Of a DNA stretch of 42,111 bases, positions 4,181 through 18,166 are shown piece by piece. How positions within the stretch are numbered: position 1 is the first letter of the stretch; every line of letters starts with the position of its first letter. Location: positions 1 through 42,111 of the IMG/VR virus record IMGVR_UViG_3300015076_000006, one strand, 5' to 3'. Made by a program: the position numbers and the translations under genes. A model generated the notes under the pieces. The model searched no databases. It had not been told where the DNA came from and saw only the letters and a program-made list of their open reading frames with translations. This DNA comes from a virus.

Positions 4181-4431
4181 CCACCCTGTTAGACGCAATC
4201 GCAGGCACGATCCTGCGCAACGGGCGGGCGCTTGAAACTGTTCTGGATGCAGGCGATTGCGAACGCATTGCAAAGAGCGTGCTGGAGGCCCAACCCACCA
4301 TCACCCTGCCAGAGATTGAGACGCGCATGGCAAATCTCGAACCAGAGGAGAGAGATGATTGGCCATACCAAGCCATTCGCCAACTCCAAGCCGAACTGAA
4401 TGCCAGATCTGAAAAGAAGTGGAGGAAGTGA
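4177..4431 (+). CDS. Small hypothetical protein (84 aa)
   Basis: It begins in an ATGA overlap. The product is acidic in the middle (LPEIETRMANLEPEERDDW) with a basic C-terminus (ARSEKKWRK) and is predicted helical. No family recognised. Its stop overlaps the next start in TGATG, with GGAGG upstream for the following tiny membrane gene. Confidence 0.6.
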   Translation: MTTLLDAIAGTILRNGRALETVLDAGDCERIAKSVLEAQPTITLPEIETRMANLEPEERDDWPYQAIRQLQAELNARSEKKWRK

Positions 4432-4520
4432 TGGGTATAATTCAAGTAGTTGCGGTTATCTGCATTTTTGGCGGGGTTGCGCTTATAGTATTGGGCTTTG
4501 CGATGGTGTTTTTTAGATGA
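4431..4520 (+). CDS. Tiny single-pass membrane peptide (29 aa)
   Basis: ATG overlaps the previous TGA and has GGAGG at 4421-4425. The whole peptide is one membrane segment (about residues 3-27, VVAVICIFGGVALIVLGFAM) with a single Arg at the end. Its stop overlaps the next start (ATGA), so translation is coupled on both sides. Such peptides can modulate membrane proteins; the function here is unknown. Confidence 0.6.
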   Translation: MGIIQVVAVICIFGGVALIVLGFAMVFFR

Positions 4521-4696
4521 CCCACTCCTCCGACATTCGCGCCATGTTCGATGACACAATCATCCCGTTCCCGCTGAGGCCTGATGTGGTGGTCAAGATA
4601 CACGGCATTCCCCCCGACATGACCGAACAGGAAGCAGAACGCCTTGCAAAATTCATCAAGGCATTTGCCAAACCAAAACAGGACAACTCCAAATGA
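4517..4696 (+). CDS. Small hypothetical protein (59 aa)
   Basis: It begins in ATGA with the membrane peptide and ends in ATGA with the next gene, so the four-gene block 4177-5187 is translationally coupled. The sequence has a short beta-like segment (PDVVVKIHGIPPDMTEQEAE) followed by a helix (AERLAKFIKAFAK), compatible with a small folded domain. No family recognised. Confidence 0.6.
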   Translation: MTHSSDIRAMFDDTIIPFPLRPDVVVKIHGIPPDMTEQEAERLAKFIKAFAKPKQDNSK

Positions 4697-5529: not shown

Positions 5530-6566
5530 TTGGAACGCATCCACTTCAGAAAGTCGGCCCCAGCCTCAATATCCACAAACGGAATAACGCGCCCTGCCCG
5601 CGTCTTGGCCAGAGGGTTGAGAATGGTAAAGATTGACGCGCCTTCATTCTGCTCCGTCTTGCCAATGCGCCGGGCATAGTCATCATTGAATTTATAGCCA
5701 CGGGTGCGGATGAGGACTGGTGTTGTGCCTTTTTCTGGTAATTCGGTTTGTGTGATTCCCCAATTGTGCTTGTGGCCACAGACGAGCAGATCAACGTCAG
5801 CCCCGAACTTGGCGGCTTTCAATGGCCCATGAAGGTTGTTCCACATGCTGTCGCCGGGGAAATCATGTGCGGCCCAGACATTGATCCGCGTTTGGTTGGG
5901 GAATTCAAGACTAAACCGTGCTTCCCAGTCATGCAGTACCAGCTTTTGTGTGCCGTGGCGCTTGGCCATCTGTGCGAGGATTGACGCGCCGTCTCCCCAA
6001 GCATCGTGATTTCCTAAAAGCCAGATCATCCATTTTATGCCAGCGTCCAGCATGAACCATTCGGCCAGTTTTCCTGCCGTCTTGGCGCTGGTTTCCTGAT
6101 CGGCGTATTTGCGTACCAATCGCCCAGCCCAATTGTTTGTTGTGTCGCCTATATTCGCGCCGTAAATCCCATCGCGGCGGCACAAGGCAATATGGCTTTC
6201 AAGCAGTGTCCAGTCGCAGCCATCGTCATCCACATGCGGGTCGCCAAAGAACATAATTCCGATTGGCTTCTTGTCTTTGACCTTTATCGGAAACCATGTG
6301 TGAGCGTCATAGGAAGCGCGGCGAATGGATGAGCGCTCTTTCATGCCGTCAATGATTTTGTTGATTGGCAGGCCGTCAGATGGAAAATCGGGGAATTCTA
6401 GTTCGTCTTTTGAAAGCTGCTTGATCTTGTAATTAGCGAGGCTGTGGCGCAGTGTGCCACGTTCAATGCCTAAAACACTTGCGGCCTTTCGTTCGCTGCG
6501 CCCGCACTTCACATACATTTCATAGCGGCGGTTTAACTCATCGTCGGAAATGCCAGGATTACTCAT
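5526..6566 (-). CDS. Calcineurin-like metallophosphoesterase with N-terminal helix-turn-helix
   Basis: All the metal-binding blocks of the metallophosphoesterase fold are present in order: GDPHVD (near residue 108), GDTTN, GNHD, AHD and GHKH. The first 70 or so residues resemble a Trp-repressor-type or transposase-like helix-turn-helix (ERKAASVLGIERGTLRHSLA), so the enzyme may be DNA-bound. Phage enzymes of this class may act on nucleotides, on DNA ends like Mre11/SbcD, or on phosphoprotein. Length (346 aa) is typical. Start overlaps the neighbouring gene by ATGA. Confidence 0.9.
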   Translation of the reverse strand: MSNPGISDDELNRRYEMYVKCGRSERKAASVLGIERGTLRHSLANYKIKQLSKDELEFPDFPSDGLPINKIIDGMKERSSIRRASYDAHTWFPIKVKDKKPIGIMFFGDPHVDDDGCDWTLLESHIALCRRDGIYGANIGDTTNNWAGRLVRKYADQETSAKTAGKLAEWFMLDAGIKWMIWLLGNHDAWGDGASILAQMAKRHGTQKLVLHDWEARFSLEFPNQTRINVWAAHDFPGDSMWNNLHGPLKAAKFGADVDLLVCGHKHNWGITQTELPEKGTTPVLIRTRGYKFNDDYARRIGKTEQNEGASIFTILNPLAKTRAGRVIPFVDIEAGADFLKWMRSK

Positions 6567-6820
6567 TCGTCGCCCTTTTCAATGCGTCGGAAGCCTAGCC
6601 GAAACAGGACATCGCCTATCTCATCGCCAGCTTCGTCAACGGCGGTTTCTGTCAGGAATGGAAAAACAATGTGCAGCACTTCATGCGCGGCGGTTGAAAG
6701 CATGGTTGGATCGTCCATGCGTTCATCGAGTTCTATCTCTCGGTCTATGTCGTAGGCATAGCCCCACGCGGATGAGAGCGGCTTCAAGACGACCTTGATT
6801 TTCTTGCGCCGCCTGCTCAT
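6563..6820 (-). CDS. Mini HExxH zinc-metallopeptidase-like protein (85 aa)
   Basis: The motif HEVLH (H46, E47, H50) is the zinc-binding/catalytic signature of gluzincin-like proteins; a third ligand cannot be assigned with confidence. A basic N-terminus (MSRRRKKIKVVLK) precedes a short beta-rich segment. The protein is far shorter than free SprT or WSS1 proteases, so it may be a minimal domain. Similar short HExxH proteins are known in phages, with uncertain function. Confidence 0.7.
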   Translation of the reverse strand: MSRRRKKIKVVLKPLSSAWGYAYDIDREIELDERMDDPTMLSTAAHEVLHIVFPFLTETAVDEAGDEIGDVLFRLGFRRIEKGDE

Positions 6821-6835
6821 GGCCGTCTTACTTTC

Positions 6836-7018
6836 TTACTGCTTCGTCTGGCCTTCGCTATCGAGCATGGTTTTGTGGATGATCAGGCCCGCAATCAGCC
6901 CATCCGCCTTTTCGGGGCCATGCAAGTTGTAATAGGTCGTGAAGGCCTGAACCACGGGCCAGACTTGCAGCAGGTTATCAAGATGGGCTTGGGTTTTGGA
7001 CTGCTCGGCTTCGGTCAT
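6836..7018 (-). CDS. Small hypothetical protein (60 aa)
   Basis: An acidic helical protein (MTEAEQSKTQAHLDNLLQVW) with a C-terminal part containing PEKADGLIAGLIIHKTML. The start overlaps the spanin gene by ATGA. No membrane segment and no family. It lies between the lysis genes and the HExxH protein, so its role is open. Confidence 0.6.
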   Translation of the reverse strand: MTEAEQSKTQAHLDNLLQVWPVVQAFTTYYNLHGPEKADGLIAGLIIHKTMLDSEGQTKQ

Positions 7019-7239
7019 TTGCAGTATGCCGCCCGCGATGCATTTGACCGCTTCACCTGCGCCACGGTTTCAGGCGTGTCGTGCTTGCCTGCATAGGTGA
7101 TGGCCTGCCATTGCGTGCAGACAAGGGGCGAGTTACCTGTCCCTGTCATAGATGTCAGGCGTGTCGATTGGCAGCCGCCCAGCAGCAGCGCCAGCATTGG
7201 CAGCATCTTCAGTGCGTTTGATGTCAGCATTTTGTGCAT
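7015..7239 (-). CDS. o-spanin (Rz1-like outer-membrane lipoprotein)
   Basis: An N-terminal signal with lipobox (LALLLGGC, Cys23) marks an outer-membrane lipoprotein. The mature part is short with a Cys pair and an end like CTQWQAITYAGKHDTPETV, typical of alphaproteobacterial phage spanins. It overlaps the 3' part of the upstream i-spanin gene in another frame by 107 bp, the usual Rz/Rz1 arrangement. Together the pair joins the inner and outer membranes in the last step of lysis. ATG at 7239 or 7230 are both possible. Confidence 0.82.
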   Translation of the reverse strand: MHKMLTSNALKMLPMLALLLGGCQSTRLTSMTGTGNSPLVCTQWQAITYAGKHDTPETVAQVKRSNASRAAYCK

Positions 7240-7372
7240 CCACTTGGCTTGCGTCTGCGCCCGCTTGGCGCTCTGCCTGCACCGCAGCGGTTTGGGAGCG
7301 GTTCAAATAAAACCGCAAACCCCAAACCGCCAGCGGAACGAAGGCGGCAACAGTTGTTAGGATTGCCCACAT
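7133..7372 (-). CDS. i-spanin (Rz-like)
   Basis: The N-terminus carries one membrane segment (residues 2-21, ILTTVAAFVPLAVWGLRFYL), followed by a helical, Ala/Gln-rich periplasmic domain suited to a coiled coil (AERQAGADASQVDAQNADIK). It overlaps the o-spanin gene in a different frame. Length (79 aa) is short for an Rz protein but within the range of small phage spanins. Assignment is from architecture and neighbour, not sequence identity. Confidence 0.75.
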   Translation of the reverse strand: MWAILTTVAAFVPLAVWGLRFYLNRSQTAAVQAERQAGADASQVDAQNADIKRTEDAANAGAAAGRLPIDTPDIYDRDR

Positions 7373-7373
7373 T

Positions 7374-7451
7374 TCACGGATCGCTAAAAATGAGCATCAG
7401 CAAAACGATAAGGACAGCACCCAGTCCTGCGCCTAACAAAAGCGCCATCAT
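7374..7451 (-). CDS. Tiny single-pass membrane peptide (25 aa)
   Basis: The peptide is almost entirely one membrane helix (LLLGAGLGAVLIVLLMLIF). It starts in an ATGA overlap with the endolysin gene and ends 1 bp from the i-spanin ATG. Its place between endolysin/holin and spanins makes it a candidate lysis modulator (antiholin or holin partner), though such a short frame could be incidental. Confidence 0.45.
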   Translation of the reverse strand: MMALLLGAGLGAVLIVLLMLIFSDP

Positions 7452-7762
7452 GTGCGCGGAGCTGCATAAGCCAAGGCGGCGTCATGCAAGCCTTGGCTTA
7501 CTTGATCAAGCGTGGGCTTCAGACTTGGCTTGAATGCCTCTGCGGCGGGAATGATGTCATCGGCAACGACGGCCACAACTCCGGCAGCGGTTCCGGTGGG
7601 CAAGAATGCCTGAATCAGCATCCCAACAGCAAGTGCACCAGCGGCAATCATGCCAAAGGTGCCGTATTCAGCAGTGACTTTTGGCAGCAACGCACCGTAA
7701 CCGCCGATCATGGCGATAATGGAGGCAATGTTAATCGTATTATGAGAGGGGGCAACAGACAT
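7448..7762 (-). CDS. Nested holin-like protein from internal start in the endolysin gene
   Basis: An in-frame ATG at 7762 (MSVAPSHNTINIASIIAM) is preceded by an AAGGAG Shine-Dalgarno about 9 bases upstream, which is better than the ribosome binding site of the full gene. The 104-aa product has one or two hydrophobic segments in the first 60 residues and an amphipathic tail, compatible with a holin. It is in the same frame as the endolysin, so the full-length protein carries it as a C-terminal domain. Independent translation is inferred, not shown. Confidence 0.6.
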   Translation of the reverse strand: MSVAPSHNTINIASIIAMIGGYGALLPKVTAEYGTFGMIAAGALAVGMLIQAFLPTGTAAGVVAVVADDIIPAAEAFKPSLKPTLDQVSQGLHDAALAYAAPRT

Positions 7763-8296
7763 GATAGAAACTCCTTTTGGGGGTTGGGTTGGTTTAAGAA
7801 TTGCGGGCTTTGAAACGGGCACCGCCAAGCCCGGCACGCGGGCCGCTTGGAAGTGCATTCTGTCATTGGGCAGGTTCTCCCAGCCCTCATTGGCGAAGGC
7901 TTGGATGACTTGGGGAACGAATGTGTGGTTGTGCGTTCCCATCGGGAAGCGTTCGGGAGCCAGATCAATCGCGCAGCCATATGAATGCATCGAGAGATGG
8001 CTTGAGCCGCGCATCAGGCGGAAGTTGTAGGAGCCGCCGAAGATCGAGACGCCCCAGCGGTCTATTGTAGCCTGATCGTGCTTGGCGGCTTCCCAAATGG
8101 CGGCAAACACCCGTCCAAGGCTATCGGCGCATTTCCGGTGAATCTTGACACTCAGAACGGGCCTGCCCGCATAGTACATCTTGAAAGGCGGCGAGACGTG
8201 TACGAGGTTCGCCGCCTCCCAAGCCGGATTGGAGCGCCCTACAGCGCCCCTAGGATCGCCGTAGAACGCATCGCAGTCTTTTTGCAGCGGCCACAT
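7448..8296 (-). CDS. M15 peptidase endolysin with C-terminal membrane domain
   Basis: The N-terminal 155 residues form a D-Ala-D-Ala carboxypeptidase/VanY-type M15 domain. The metal ligands are H104 (SLHSYGCAIDL context), D111 and H148 (DRMHFQ), matching the HxxxxxxD...H pattern. It should cut peptide bridges of the cell wall. A Pro/Lys linker (about 160-178) leads to a 104-residue C-terminal part with one or two membrane segments (IASIIAMIGGYGALL and GMIAAGALAVGMLIQAFL). That tail has its own start site (7762). Either one fused, membrane-tethered protein or two products are made. Confidence 0.85.
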   Translation of the reverse strand: MWPLQKDCDAFYGDPRGAVGRSNPAWEAANLVHVSPPFKMYYAGRPVLSVKIHRKCADSLGRVFAAIWEAAKHDQATIDRWGVSIFGGSYNFRLMRGSSHLSMHSYGCAIDLAPERFPMGTHNHTFVPQVIQAFANEGWENLPNDRMHFQAARVPGLAVPVSKPAILKPTQPPKGVSIMSVAPSHNTINIASIIAMIGGYGALLPKVTAEYGTFGMIAAGALAVGMLIQAFLPTGTAAGVVAVVADDIIPAAEAFKPSLKPTLDQVSQGLHDAALAYAAPRT

Positions 8297-8299
8297 TGG

Positions 8300-8575
8300 T
8301 TAGGCTACCGGGGCTACTGGCGCGGCTTCTGGGCCAGCCAGAGCGGTCACAAGTTGTTCCGCCTTGGCCACTACATCGGCAGGCAGGGCATTGGCCACTT
8401 GGCCTTGCAGGGTTCCAACCTGAGATTTTAGATCGGTGATTTCAGCATCCTTGGCCACATTTGCGGCAAGGGCAGCATCGAGACGTGCAGCAGTAAGCAT
8501 GTATTTATACTCCAAGTTTTTGATGTACCGCGCTTGATGACGGTGACGGTGGAACCGTTCGAGAAGGTGTTTCAT
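8300..8575 (-). CDS. Small coiled-coil protein (91 aa)
   Basis: The N-terminus is strongly basic and His-rich (LLERFHRHRHQARYIKNLEY), the middle is a probable coiled coil (LDAALAANVAKDAEITDLKS) and the end is Ala/Pro-rich (GPEAAPVAPVA). There is no membrane segment. It sits between the protease and the endolysin with a few bases on each side. Not recognised as a family; it may be a structural or lysis-associated accessory. Confidence 0.65.
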   Translation of the reverse strand: MKHLLERFHRHRHQARYIKNLEYKYMLTAARLDAALAANVAKDAEITDLKSQVGTLQGQVANALPADVVAKAEQLVTALAGPEAAPVAPVA

Positions 8576-8582
8576 TGGTGGC

Positions 8583-9341
8583 CTATGCTGCCACTGAGAG
8601 GTTCAGGGCCTTCAATAGGTCAAGAACGTTCTGTACTGGGGAAGCCAAGTAAGGGCCGCCGGGCCTAGCCCAATTAGTGAGGCCAATAAGTTCGCCAGAG
8701 TCATTGAACAAGCCGCCGCCTGAGGAACCGGGGGCCATGAGGCAATCAAACACAATGACAGTGACATCGCCCCTGTTGTTGGCAAACACATACTGAGGCT
8801 TGATAACGTTGCCTTGGGCCACTGCCCCAAGAAGCATCAGGGGGTTTCCCACAGTGAAGACAGGGGCACCAAAAGTAGTAAGGGTGCTGCTGATCTTTAC
8901 TTGGTTGGTGAAAGGAGAGGCCGCTATGCTGTGAAGGATTGCAACGTCACCGGGGTATGAAGCCCCGACAACCTCTGTGCTGTACTTTTGACTGCCTGTG
9001 ACATTGCCCTGATCATCAAAATTCCAGATGGTGATCTCAATAGGCTTGAAGTAAGTTCTATGGCCCTTCACTACCGAGCCATCGGGGCGGGTGACATCAA
9101 ACCAGTCTGTCGTTACGGCATCATCAGCGCAGTGCGCGGCTGTGACTACAAGCCCCTGCTGCTTGTCAATGACTGTGCCTGAGCAGTAGTCCCCCACTTG
9201 AACCAGAGTTGTGTTGGCTTGGTTGTGGGCTTCCTTGAGAGACCAGGCATTCGCCGGGGCGGTCAAAATGTAAATGAAGGCGACTGCAATGCAGATCACA
9301 GCGGCCCACATGCCGTATAGGATTTTGGCAGGTGTATCCAT
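8583..9341 (-). CDS. Membrane-anchored trypsin-like serine protease
   Basis: A chymotrypsin-fold protease with a full triad: His70 in TAAHC, Asp132 in PGDVAI and Ser207 in the GSSGGG loop. Before it comes an N-terminal hydrophobic segment (about 9-30, MWAAVICIAVAFIYILT), which may be a cleavable signal or an anchor. Cys53/Cys71 could form a disulfide near the His. The predicted site is the periplasm. No other phage protein here has an obvious long cleavable target. Proteases of this fold are uncommon in phage lysis modules. Length (252 aa) fits the fold. Confidence 0.85.
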   Translation of the reverse strand: MDTPAKILYGMWAAVICIAVAFIYILTAPANAWSLKEAHNQANTTLVQVGDYCSGTVIDKQQGLVVTAAHCADDAVTTDWFDVTRPDGSVVKGHRTYFKPIEITIWNFDDQGNVTGSQKYSTEVVGASYPGDVAILHSIAASPFTNQVKISSTLTTFGAPVFTVGNPLMLLGAVAQGNVIKPQYVFANNRGDVTVIVFDCLMAPGSSGGGLFNDSGELIGLTNWARPGGPYLASPVQNVLDLLKALNLSVAA

Positions 9342-9354
9342 GGTTTCGGCTTCC

Positions 9355-9621
9355 TTATTTTTGAAGAAAGTACAGCAAGAATTTGTGCATCACTGCGCCC
9401 ATCGCGCCCGCAATGACGCCGATGGTGGCCAGCACGCGCCAGCCGCCCTTGACTTGGTTTAGGATTGTGGAAAACTCATCCAGCTTCACGTCGATCTTTC
9501 TGAACTGATCTTCGGTTCGGTTGGCGTGATTGATGCGTTGCTGCTCGGCCTGCCGCTGGCCTTCCTGCAAAGCGCCAATGGCTTGGGAGATTTCGTTGAG
9601 CTGGCCTGATTGGTCGGGCAT
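9355..9621 (-). CDS. XhlA-like/DUF1515-like membrane protein, possible holin or anchor
   Basis: The 88-aa protein (ATG at 9621, six bases from the upstream stop; TTG at 9636 is the alternative) begins with a long coiled coil (ISQAIGALQEGQRQAEQQR, then RTEDQFRKIDVKLDEFSTIL) and ends with a single C-terminal membrane segment (about 65-83). This is the layout of XhlA-type hemolysin/holin accessories. It lies directly upstream of the protease and lysis genes, so a lysis role is likely. Confidence 0.65.
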   Translation of the reverse strand: MPDQSGQLNEISQAIGALQEGQRQAEQQRINHANRTEDQFRKIDVKLDEFSTILNQVKGGWRVLATIGVIAGAMGAVMHKFLLYFLQK

Positions 9622-9626
9622 GGTTA

Positions 9627-10961
9627 TTAATCCCAAGCCGCACTGATGGAACCAGCATCAAAAGTGCCCGCCCCCATGAGGAGGCGAATGGTTGTTACCG
9701 CAGCCCCCAAAGAGACGGTTCCAGCAGTAGAATATATTATATTGCCAACCGGATCAGCGATGCCGCCCGAAATTGACCAGTTATTGCCACCTGTGTGAAT
9801 GAGCGTAAGAACCCCGCTATGCAATGATGATGCGGCGGCGGTGCTGCTTAATTGGAATGAAGTAGTGGCTGGGGTTGATGTGGTTATGTTTGTGCTTGCG
9901 CTTCCAACAGCCATGGAAGCGTAATTCGTTGACACAATACCGCCGCCAGTACCGAGACGGAGCGTGAGATTACCTGCCGCGCTTCCACTAACGCCATTGA
10001 GAGCAACAAAAATGCGCGTTGGTGTGCCTGTCACTGTTATGTCAACAGTCGTGCCGCTGGTTGTGACGTTAGAAAGAGATTTGCCAACCGAAATGGCACC
10101 TCCACTCGCGGGGAATATCGTCACCTGCATATTCGCCGTGGTGAGAGCGTCAACGATTGCAAAATCACCAGCAGCGACTTGGTAGTTACTGCCGCCCGTG
10201 TTCATCACCATTGATGTGCCGTTGTAGGTTATTAGTGGGGTTCCGGTGAACAGCACATAACGCTTTTCGCCCGCTTGATGCGCTGTGCCAAAGCTCGTTA
10301 TGCCAGTGTTGCCCGTGACATTCACATCGTTGCCGTCGGCATTCGTCCAAATGTCAGTTGTGGCCGCTGCCGCCACGTTAGCGCCTTTGGCTTCGCGGAA
10401 ATCCTTGCCCGACATGATGAGCGCAGATGTAGCCGTGCCGCCCGTGAATGCGCTGGCCTGTGGGGTTAGAAGCCTGACATTCGTGCCGTCGTAATAGCCC
10501 CGATTGAGAACGCCAGAAACACCCGTTGCGCCCGCTGCCAATGCGGCACCCGTCGATGAAACAATGGTTTTAGCGCCGATACCATCTTTGTTGATCGTTG
10601 GCGTTGCGCTGGTATTGGCACCCCCGCTAATCCACTCAAAGGTTTCTTTTGTCACCCACGCCACAGAGGCTGGCGACATAGCGATGGTGATTGCGTCAAC
10701 CGTGCCAGCAACACTGGCCGCTTTCGAGATAATCTCCTGCTGTAACTGCTTGACGGTTGCGGGGTGAGCGACCGCCGTGCCATCGCCTGACAGCGTTTGC
10801 AGCCCTGTCATAGCCAACTTGCCGTCAAGATTGACCTTGCCGTTAATGCCCGTCACGGCATTATTGGTTTCGTCATTTACTTGCTGTGAGACAAGCGCAG
10901 CCGAATTTGCTATGAGAGTTCCAGGGGTTCTCGTGAAGTTACCGCCGCCGTCGAAAGGCAT
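9627..10961 (-). CDS. Tail fibre protein
   Basis: A 444-aa beta-rich, Gly/Ser/Thr-rich protein. The N-terminus (FTRTPGTLIANSAALVSQQV, with NGKVNLDGKLAMTGLQTLSG) has the phage tail-fibre head pattern of a short virion-attachment domain and a repeat-rich stem. The C-terminal 200 residues are Gly/Thr-rich beta strands ending in GAGTFDAGSISAAWD, a probable receptor-binding tip. No enzyme motif is visible. It is the last structural gene before the lysis module. Confidence 0.8.
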   Translation of the reverse strand: MPFDGGGNFTRTPGTLIANSAALVSQQVNDETNNAVTGINGKVNLDGKLAMTGLQTLSGDGTAVAHPATVKQLQQEIISKAASVAGTVDAITIAMSPASVAWVTKETFEWISGGANTSATPTINKDGIGAKTIVSSTGAALAAGATGVSGVLNRGYYDGTNVRLLTPQASAFTGGTATSALIMSGKDFREAKGANVAAAATTDIWTNADGNDVNVTGNTGITSFGTAHQAGEKRYVLFTGTPLITYNGTSMVMNTGGSNYQVAAGDFAIVDALTTANMQVTIFPASGGAISVGKSLSNVTTSGTTVDITVTGTPTRIFVALNGVSGSAAGNLTLRLGTGGGIVSTNYASMAVGSASTNITTSTPATTSFQLSSTAAASSLHSGVLTLIHTGGNNWSISGGIADPVGNIIYSTAGTVSLGAAVTTIRLLMGAGTFDAGSISAAWD

Positions 10962-16066: not shown

Positions 16067-16524
16067 TTAGGAACCTCGTTGAGCCTATGTTTGGCCCACT
16101 GATCTTTGGTCATCATAAATAGCCATTCGTGTTTTCCTGCCCCACGCATGTTGGGCAACAGAAGGGCTTTGAAACCAAGGAATTTATAAATCTTGATGGC
16201 GCGCTCATTATTTGTCGCCATGCGTGAAACTATTTGCTGACAATTGTGTTGTATAAAGCAGATCGCCATAATCTCGCGGACGGCACGCTTGCTGAACCAT
16301 TTTGGGCTGCTTGCAGCCGCGCTTATTTCGATCACGCCATAACCGGGATGCCAGCCATGAAAAATAATAGCTGCTATCAGTTTTCCGTCGTCAAATATGC
16401 CAAGGGTTCCACAGGGGCCGAAATCATTAGGCTGGCTGAAAATTAGCTGGGCGGCAAAATTACAAAAGGCCGTGTTGAGTTTCGGCGATGCCTTCGCATT
16501 GGCATATAGAAACCTAACCGACAA
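16063..16524 (-). CDS. GNAT-type N-acetyltransferase
   Basis: This 153-aa protein has GNAT features: beta-strand segments around GKLIAAIIFHG, a region KRAVREIMAICFIQHNCQQI where motif A should lie, and the later TNNERAIKIYKFLGFKA, a classic motif B (NxxxIxxYxxxGF). The ATG overlaps the tail hub gene and the stop overlaps the next gene. The family is convincing; the substrate is unknown. It may modify virion or host proteins. Confidence 0.75.
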   Translation of the reverse strand: MSVRFLYANAKASPKLNTAFCNFAAQLIFSQPNDFGPCGTLGIFDDGKLIAAIIFHGWHPGYGVIEISAAASSPKWFSKRAVREIMAICFIQHNCQQIVSRMATNNERAIKIYKFLGFKALLLPNMRGAGKHEWLFMMTKDQWAKHRLNEVPK

Positions 16525-18166
16525 CGGTGCCCGGCCTATAAGTCACGGTGTTGGAAACAATCTCCACGTCTGGGGCCGTAGAGTTATTGAGCGTCATCTG
16601 AATTTGAATTGCGCCTTCATACCCGGCGCGGCCCACTGAACGCCACACATGGTCAACCGTGCGGGCCGGGGCCGTATCCCACGTGCCGCCCGTATCCCAG
16701 AAGCCGCCTAAATCCCAAAACCCGCCCGTGGTGCTATTGGCACCAGCCGCCCCTGCCGTAGACCATGACACGACAAAATCAGTCGAGATGTTGACCTGTG
16801 CATTAAAGGGTTGAGAGTACGTGAATGTTGTACGGCATTGCAGAAACTGCTTGATGCCGGGGTCGCCAAAATCATCCGGCCATTCGAGATATTTGAACAC
16901 ATAGGGCGAGCCGTCATCGCTGCCCGTCGCTTCGGCCAGATAAACCCGCCCGTTGGCCGAACCAAAATAAAGCTGTCCGTTGAAATAGATCGAACACTGC
17001 ACATCCCAACCCGTGTAGGAGCTATTCCATGCGCCTGTTTCAATGTTGGCTGCATAAGCGTTGCCGGGATTGTTGATGGTGTCTGTGGTTCCCCCGATGA
17101 GCGTGTAGGCCCCGGCATAGGCCGCTAGCATCATGTTCTTTTCGGGCCATTTTTCCAGTGACCATTCAAGCGTTCGGAAGGATGCCGCAATGGATTTCCA
17201 GCCGGGGTTGACTTCTTTTGTAACCGCCGAGATTGACAGCGAGCCTGCATCCTTGGTTACGGCCAATGAAAGGGTTACAATGCCGTCAACGGTGCCGACA
17301 ATCAGATCGCCGCCGATGTAGGCAAAGCATTTCCGGCCCAACGGCTTGCCAATATTGTAAGTGCCGAGACGCGACCAGGTGCTTGGGCTGGACGGATCGG
17401 TGCCTGTATAAACCGCAACCTCGCCTTCCGAAGTCACAAACACAATCTTTTCATTGAGGCCCGATCCGGTATCGCTTGACCATTTGCCCCCGAAAATCAG
17501 ATTGCCGCCCTTTTGAAAAATGCCCTTCAGCGAAACCTCAGTGACCGCGCCGCCGACGCTATCAACGGGCAAGTACCAGACGGAAAGCGTGTTTTTCTGG
17601 ATGAACCAAAGGCGGCTCGCGTATGACCATACAAAGTTGAAATTGTCGGAAGTCTTGCCCGTGATGGCCGGGCTGTTTGATGCCCATGCCGCACCGTCAT
17701 AGATTTGATGCAGGTCACTGCCGTTAACCGCGAGCATGAAATTGCCGCCCGCCGTGGCGAAATTGCACGACACATAGAAACTATTGGTTAGGCCCGTAAC
17801 CGAAGCGGCGGGGGGCACCGTTGGGCTGGCAGGGGCTGTGATGGGATAAATGCTGCCATTAGCAACGGCCCATAGTGATTTCGCCGAGCCGCCCTGGTAG
17901 CCCAGAAGGCTTTGCACCGCCCGCGTGCCAGTCGTAGCCCAACGCTGTGAACCGCCGCGCGGCCTAACACCCGTCTGGGTCGGGAAACCGTTTTCAATAA
18001 GCTGGGCAAAGCCCGCAGCGGGTGCGCCGATAGACCGTGCCGACGAAACGCCCTTGGTCGCAGCAGGGATAGTTGGGGCAACCTTGGCTGCAACGGGTTG
18101 GGCCGGGGCTTGTGCCGTCTTGACCTTCTGCTTGGCATAGGGATAGGCCGCAAGCACTCTGCTCAT
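16514..18166 (-). CDS. Tail hub/packaged-DNA stabilisation-like protein (550 aa)
   Basis: The protein is beta-rich with repeated Trp/Gly/Asn strands (WAVANGSIYPI, FVWSYASRLWFIQK, GGDLIVGTVDGI, QLYFGSANGRVYLAEA) that look like propeller blades. A basic, Pro/Ala-rich N-terminus precedes them. This is the layout of the P22 gp10-type tail hub that closes the portal after packaging. Two adaptor genes lie immediately upstream, which supports this. There is no catalytic motif. The family link is inference from architecture and order. Confidence 0.65.
   Translation of the reverse strand: MSRVLAAYPYAKQKVKTAQAPAQPVAAKVAPTIPAATKGVSSARSIGAPAAGFAQLIENGFPTQTGVRPRGGSQRWATTGTRAVQSLLGYQGGSAKSLWAVANGSIYPITAPASPTVPPAASVTGLTNSFYVSCNFATAGGNFMLAVNGSDLHQIYDGAAWASNSPAITGKTSDNFNFVWSYASRLWFIQKNTLSVWYLPVDSVGGAVTEVSLKGIFQKGGNLIFGGKWSSDTGSGLNEKIVFVTSEGEVAVYTGTDPSSPSTWSRLGTYNIGKPLGRKCFAYIGGDLIVGTVDGIVTLSLAVTKDAGSLSISAVTKEVNPGWKSIAASFRTLEWSLEKWPEKNMMLAAYAGAYTLIGGTTDTINNPGNAYAANIETGAWNSSYTGWDVQCSIYFNGQLYFGSANGRVYLAEATGSDDGSPYVFKYLEWPDDFGDPGIKQFLQCRTTFTYSQPFNAQVNISTDFVVSWSTAGAAGANSTTGGFWDLGGFWDTGGTWDTAPARTVDHVWRSVGRAGYEGAIQIQMTLNNSTAPDVEIVSNTVTYRPGTVVG

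Follow-up and report, generated by a model that had tools for sequence, protein, structure and literature searches.

The minus strand of the window (the whole stretch of 42,111 nt that was analysed, from an IMG/VR virus record) carries, from 8296 to 7448, a gene whose single frame encodes a predicted M15 endolysin joined by a disordered linker to a membrane domain; the latter contains two hydrophobic segments, each of the length of a helix. A strong Shine-Dalgarno (SD) sequence and an in-frame ATG lie at the junction of the domains. We propose, with a probability of roughly two in three, that a holin has become fused to its endolysin while keeping its own ribosome-binding site and start codon, and that the gene would thus give rise to a membrane-tethered endolysin plus a free holin. 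We infer the two products and the holin function from the sequence and from comparison with related phages.

Domains and surroundings of the fusion gene

The frame begins with ATG and comprises 282 codons and a stop. The first-pass annotation did not give the strand of 7448-8296; the frame is that of the minus strand, and the plus strand has three stops at the same coordinates in the frame starting at 7448. That annotation described an M15 endolysin continuing in frame into a membrane domain, a description with which the frame, the Pfam and PHROG matches and the hydropathy all agree. The start codon is located 3 nt beyond the stop of the upstream gene 8300-8575 and is preceded by a poor SD (anti-SD energy, −3.0 kcal/mol), and for these reasons translation of the fusion gene is likely coupled to that of the upstream gene.

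The N-terminal part matches Peptidase_M15_4 (PF13539) at residues 97-150 (E=2.1e-6; score, 28.6 bits; cut-off, 25) and the endolysin family PHROG 17001 at residues 2-153 (E=2.5e-21). Residues H104, D111, D145 and H148 are all retained and are invariant in alignments of 9, 21 and 17 sequences; they are probably the metal ligands and catalytic residues. An M15 profile matched PDB entry 2vo9, an L-Ala-D-Glu peptidase, at 9e-6, and the top Foldseek matches of the domain were Hedgehog and VanX, which have the M15-type fold, with E values of only about 0.03. AlphaFold modelled the domain with pLDDT values mostly between 87 and 98. Judged by profiles and conserved residues together, the N-terminal part is predicted to be an M15 endolysin with L-Ala-D-Glu or D-Ala-D-Ala peptidase activity.

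The C-terminal part contains two 17-residue hydrophobic segments with Kyte-Doolittle means of 1.80 and 2.11, and a weaker third peak. AlphaFold predicted helices at residues 190-231, 234-255 and 257-278 with modest pLDDT. Like a holin, the nested product would be a small protein with membrane segments, two in 104 residues. Comparison of the fused domain with known holin families gave nothing above noise, and no stand-alone copy of the domain was found in the phage collection at E values up to 1. Homology to the holins of the L012 type was suggested by BLAST (E=0.03) and was rejected, as profile comparison gave no support.

The coordinates of the fusion gene and of the spanin genes are collected in Table 1. 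The i-spanin candidate had no family match above noise in Pfam or PHROG. The host is probably a Gram-negative alphaproteobacterium, as judged from the relatives of the phage and from the spanins. Several other minus-strand genes of the window were noted. The gene at 6563-6820, near the lysis genes, encodes a small protein with an HEVLH motif that is possibly metalloprotease-like, and it has a close homologue in another viral contig, L001 (6246-6533). The product of 8583-9341 is a trypsin-like protease (PF13365, 57.8 bits) whose N-terminus bears a hydrophobic segment; the gene stands between gene 9627-10961 and the endolysin gene, an odd place for a serine protease. Among the structural genes, 16514-18166 encodes a 550-residue protein that matches PHROG 5107, labelled amidase, at E=2e-118.

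Table 1. Features of the fusion gene and of the spanin genes
Feature	Position	Strand	Basis or remark
Full fusion frame	7448..8296	−	M15 endolysin, linker and two-segment membrane domain; homologue in L001 open over its full length
M15 peptidase domain, aa 1-154	7835..8296	−	Pfam and PHROG matches, retained residues, structure prediction
Proline-rich linker, aa 155-178	7763..7834	−	AlphaFold pLDDT; comparison with L001
Internal Shine-Dalgarno AAAAGGAG	7771..7778	−	8 nt ahead of the internal ATG
Nested frame of 104 aa starting at the internal ATG (predicted free holin)	7448..7762	−	Hydropathy, position, L001 counterpart
Hydrophobic segments of the nested frame	about 7735-7685 and 7651-7601	−	Hydropathy
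i-spanin (probable)	7133..7372	−	N-terminal hydrophobic segment; overlaps the o-spanin frame
o-spanin lipoprotein	7015..7239	−	PHROG 1275 (Rz-like spanin), E=2.4e-4; overlaps the i-spanin in another frame

The internal start site and a second fused gene

The internal ATG is codon 179 (7762-7760) and is preceded by AAAAGGAG-TTTCTATC. At −8.4 kcal/mol, the anti-SD duplex is far stronger here than at the endolysin's own start and has the lowest energy among the 240 internal in-frame ATGs of the genes predicted in the window. When GTG and TTG codons are counted as well, 6 of 569 other codons score lower, by energy only and with no spacing filter. Gene starts of equal strength are few (7 of the 50 in the window), and once a distance filter is applied, an SD core is present at 8 of 219 internal ATGs, of which the ATG at 7762 is the strongest. 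By these comparisons the strength of the internal SD is above chance, and the site is placed exactly at the domain boundary; the near-perfect SD reported in the first-pass annotation is thereby borne out in both energy and spacing. With regard to local structure, the SD is unpaired with a value of 0.44, which is middling, and the ATG, at 0.73, is mostly open.

A second gene with the same fusion architecture is present in L001, an IMG/VR viral contig of 40,484 bases, where it forms one open frame 53% identical to that of the window; its membrane part is 44% identical to the window's nested frame. At the junction, both genes have GGAG followed at a spacing of 8 nt by an in-frame ATG, within a linker that has otherwise diverged (5 of 24 aligned residues in common). 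The differences between the two genes at the first, second and third codon positions are 0.29, 0.27 and 0.56 in the M15 part and 0.38, 0.38 and 0.71 in the membrane part. Because third positions differ most in both parts, the sequence on either side of the junction appears to be under coding constraint. A search for a third fused example in viral contigs, genome contigs and 385 genomes of one class found only L001.

Residues 161-191 of the window's protein are predicted to be disordered (pLDDT below 50). An open in-frame linker would be expected by chance in about 14-19% of cases, and its presence is therefore modest support for continuity of the gene. One could envision instead that two ordinary overlapping genes were joined by a base missed during assembly or sequencing in the run CCCCCAAAA (7783-7775, minus strand), since the insertion of a single base at this place would bring the M15 frame to a stop shortly past the holin start. 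We regard such an error as highly improbable, because the independent contig L001 is fused too, lacks such a run and, in its single frame, resembles the window both before and after the junction. The indel between two originally separate genes that the first-pass annotation had named as a possible refutation is thus made unlikely. The same run holds the heptamer CCCAAAA, of the type at which −1 slippage occurs, just ahead of the internal SD; the shifted frame would meet a stop 11 codons on and would yield a free M15 protein. L001 lacks CCCAAAA, and we have set this reading aside for that reason.

The holin slot in related phages

Close relatives have an M15 gene that ends where the junction would be, and a separate, SD-led gene for a small membrane protein comes after it; the M15 frame of most other relatives ends within about six residues of the sequence HFQ. 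An SD-led small membrane gene comes next after 42 of 81 distinct short M15 genes, a count that includes near-copies, and 17 of the 42 are in the same frame as the M15 gene. In L010-L024, the same-frame, SD-led membrane gene begins 15 nt past the M15 stop, the spacer consisting of TAA TAG GAG and five or six bases before the ATG. In L031, L033 and L026, the gene in this slot scores above the Pfam cut-off for Phage_holin_10 (PF23987). L031-L033 are among the nearest M15 relatives of the window, and further along the L033 cassette lies the gene for an o-spanin that shares 57% identity with that of the window (E=4e-21). In L001, the gene downstream of the fusion is similar (E=5e-6) to the one that follows Phage_holin_10 in L026. 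Because close relatives carry a separate holin gene at this point of the lysis cassette, the gene order supports the view that the fused domain occupies their holin slot, and it is a predicted holin by position. The label "holin-like" in the first-pass annotation is upheld on the same ground.

A hydrophobic C-terminal segment was found in 13 of 96 distinct M15 genes. Eleven of the 13 are of other types, mostly M15 followed by a peptidoglycan-binding repeat and one membrane segment, and the combination of M15, linker, two-segment membrane domain and SD-led junction ATG occurs only in the window and in L001. The first-pass annotation had called the arrangement rare, which fits 2 of 96; the 96 genes were picked by similarity to the window's M15 domain, and this fraction is therefore not a general frequency. 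Gene 2992-4140 of L003 (MW202748.1), annotated as an n acetylmuramidase, belongs to the same M15 family in its N-terminal half, and the rest is an apparent peptidoglycan-binding repeat followed by a membrane segment.

The 11 genes of other types bear on an alternative in which the fusion gene makes one product, a tethered endolysin comparable to M4Lys, LysAP and the Enc34 enzyme. Its C-terminal domain would then anchor the enzyme or act as a delivery helix, the SD at the junction would be a relic or due to chance, and the holin would be encoded elsewhere, for instance by 9355-9636, whose product has a C-terminal hydrophobic segment. Endolysins that lyse through a C-terminal membrane domain do exist, and 9 of the 11 have no comparable internal start. 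However, the SD, its spacing and the ATG recur in L001 within the diverged linker, the slot is that of the holin in close relatives, and no candidate holin gene adjoins the fusion gene as one does in the published cases. We therefore consider a single product unlikely. Candidate internal starts in the 11 genes were limited to L115, where the SD-like sequence is a G-run, and L037, where the start lies inside the peptidoglycan-binding part; that of L115 was not found in its relative L038. Gene 9355-9636 (minus strand) encodes 93 residues and is a possible second holin candidate, or a lysis or regulator gene; in L001, the gene in a similar position (4419-4679) has its hydrophobic segment at the N-terminus.

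In the M15 tree, the window, L001 and L031-L033 form one well-supported group (100/99), within which L031-L033, with their separate genes, are placed with the window at 91/83. A single origin of the fusion was not adopted, because with this placement one fusion followed by replacement fits the tree as well as two fusions do.

Two predicted products and comparison with known systems

Endolysin and holin are usually encoded by two neighbouring genes, and the usual view of holins is that they release a soluble endolysin. According to our proposal, an endolysin gene and the holin gene following it would have merged into one frame in which the holin's ribosome-binding site and start codon were retained. 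In each full-length product, about 30 flexible residues would connect the M15 peptidase to the N-terminus of the membrane-bound holin domain, and initiation at the ATG at 7762 would produce the holin alone. Because both products would share the membrane domain, the tethered enzyme may co-assemble in holin rafts, would already be at the lesion on triggering, and its linker could let it extend through the lesion as far as the wall. Lysis timing might be tuned by the proportion of the two products, which would follow from the unequal strength of the ribosome-binding sites, the outer one weak and the inner one strong. We infer the membrane topology, the co-assembly and the timing from this arrangement. 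A stricter version, in which the gene gives no free endolysin, is tentative, and we would put it at somewhat less than even: M15, always tethered, would co-assemble with the free holin made from this frame and work through the lesion to whose formation it contributes, and one gene would then encode both the timing of lysis and the cutting of the wall in fixed coupling.

Two starts on one holin frame is also the arrangement of lambda S, a dual-start holin whose longer form acts as a timer or antiholin. By analogy, both products might be made with the long form serving mainly as timer or antiholin, M15 requiring proteolytic release before it could cut the wall. The disordered linker could be cleaved; however, no protease site was identified. 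We judge this alternative improbable. The small number of fused examples, two, counts against the reading of a tethered endolysin plus a free holin. If that reading is correct, the system would offer a direct test of whether release of the endolysin is required or whether the enzyme can act at the lesion while still tethered.

Each half of the arrangement has published precedents, and the combination is without a precedent that we could find: in a literature search of limited journal coverage, we did not come across an endolysin-holin fusion that also contains a free holin nested in its frame. The order of an N-terminal enzyme and a C-terminal membrane domain is shared with Enc34 ORF39, whose membrane domain has two helices (PMC8943055), and with M4Lys of BSPM4 (PMC7143992) and LysAP of AP1 (PMC8879335), in both of which the membrane domain is needed for lysis. 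The catalytic domains of the Enc34 and M4Lys proteins are unrelated to that described here, which is M15 and not the PHA02564 domain of Enc34. A separate candidate holin gene stands alongside each of the three endolysins, and no internal start is described for them in the accessible parts of these papers; a double-start motif is noted for Enc34 ORF38 (PMC8943055). A holin and an endolysin are translationally fused in the TpeE-family protein WP_163247266.1 of C. sporogenes (PMC9527704), but there the holin comes first and the endolysin last, the reverse of the order found here, with one membrane helix, a Gram-positive host and no free holin proposed. The Phage_holin_10 proteins of the relatives share the location of the fused domain, immediately behind an M15 endolysin and ahead of the membrane or spanin genes that come next; unlike it, they are encoded by separate genes past a stop codon, and they have no detectable sequence match to it.

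Endolysin genes of Gram-positive phages commonly contain in-frame internal starts, from which a second product is made (PMC9430671). As in Ms6 LysA, CTP1L, CS74L and LysP7951 (PMC9430671, PMC3111421, PMC4777826), the fusion gene has two in-frame starts and one stop, with the SD-led inner start between domains; in those endolysins the shorter protein consists of a wall-binding region or a further catalytic domain, whereas here it would be the membrane domain. The survey of such starts excluded Gram-negative phages as unlikely to have them (PMC9430671), and if our reading is true, internal-start endolysins would also occur in a phage whose host is probably Gram-negative, a group outside that survey.
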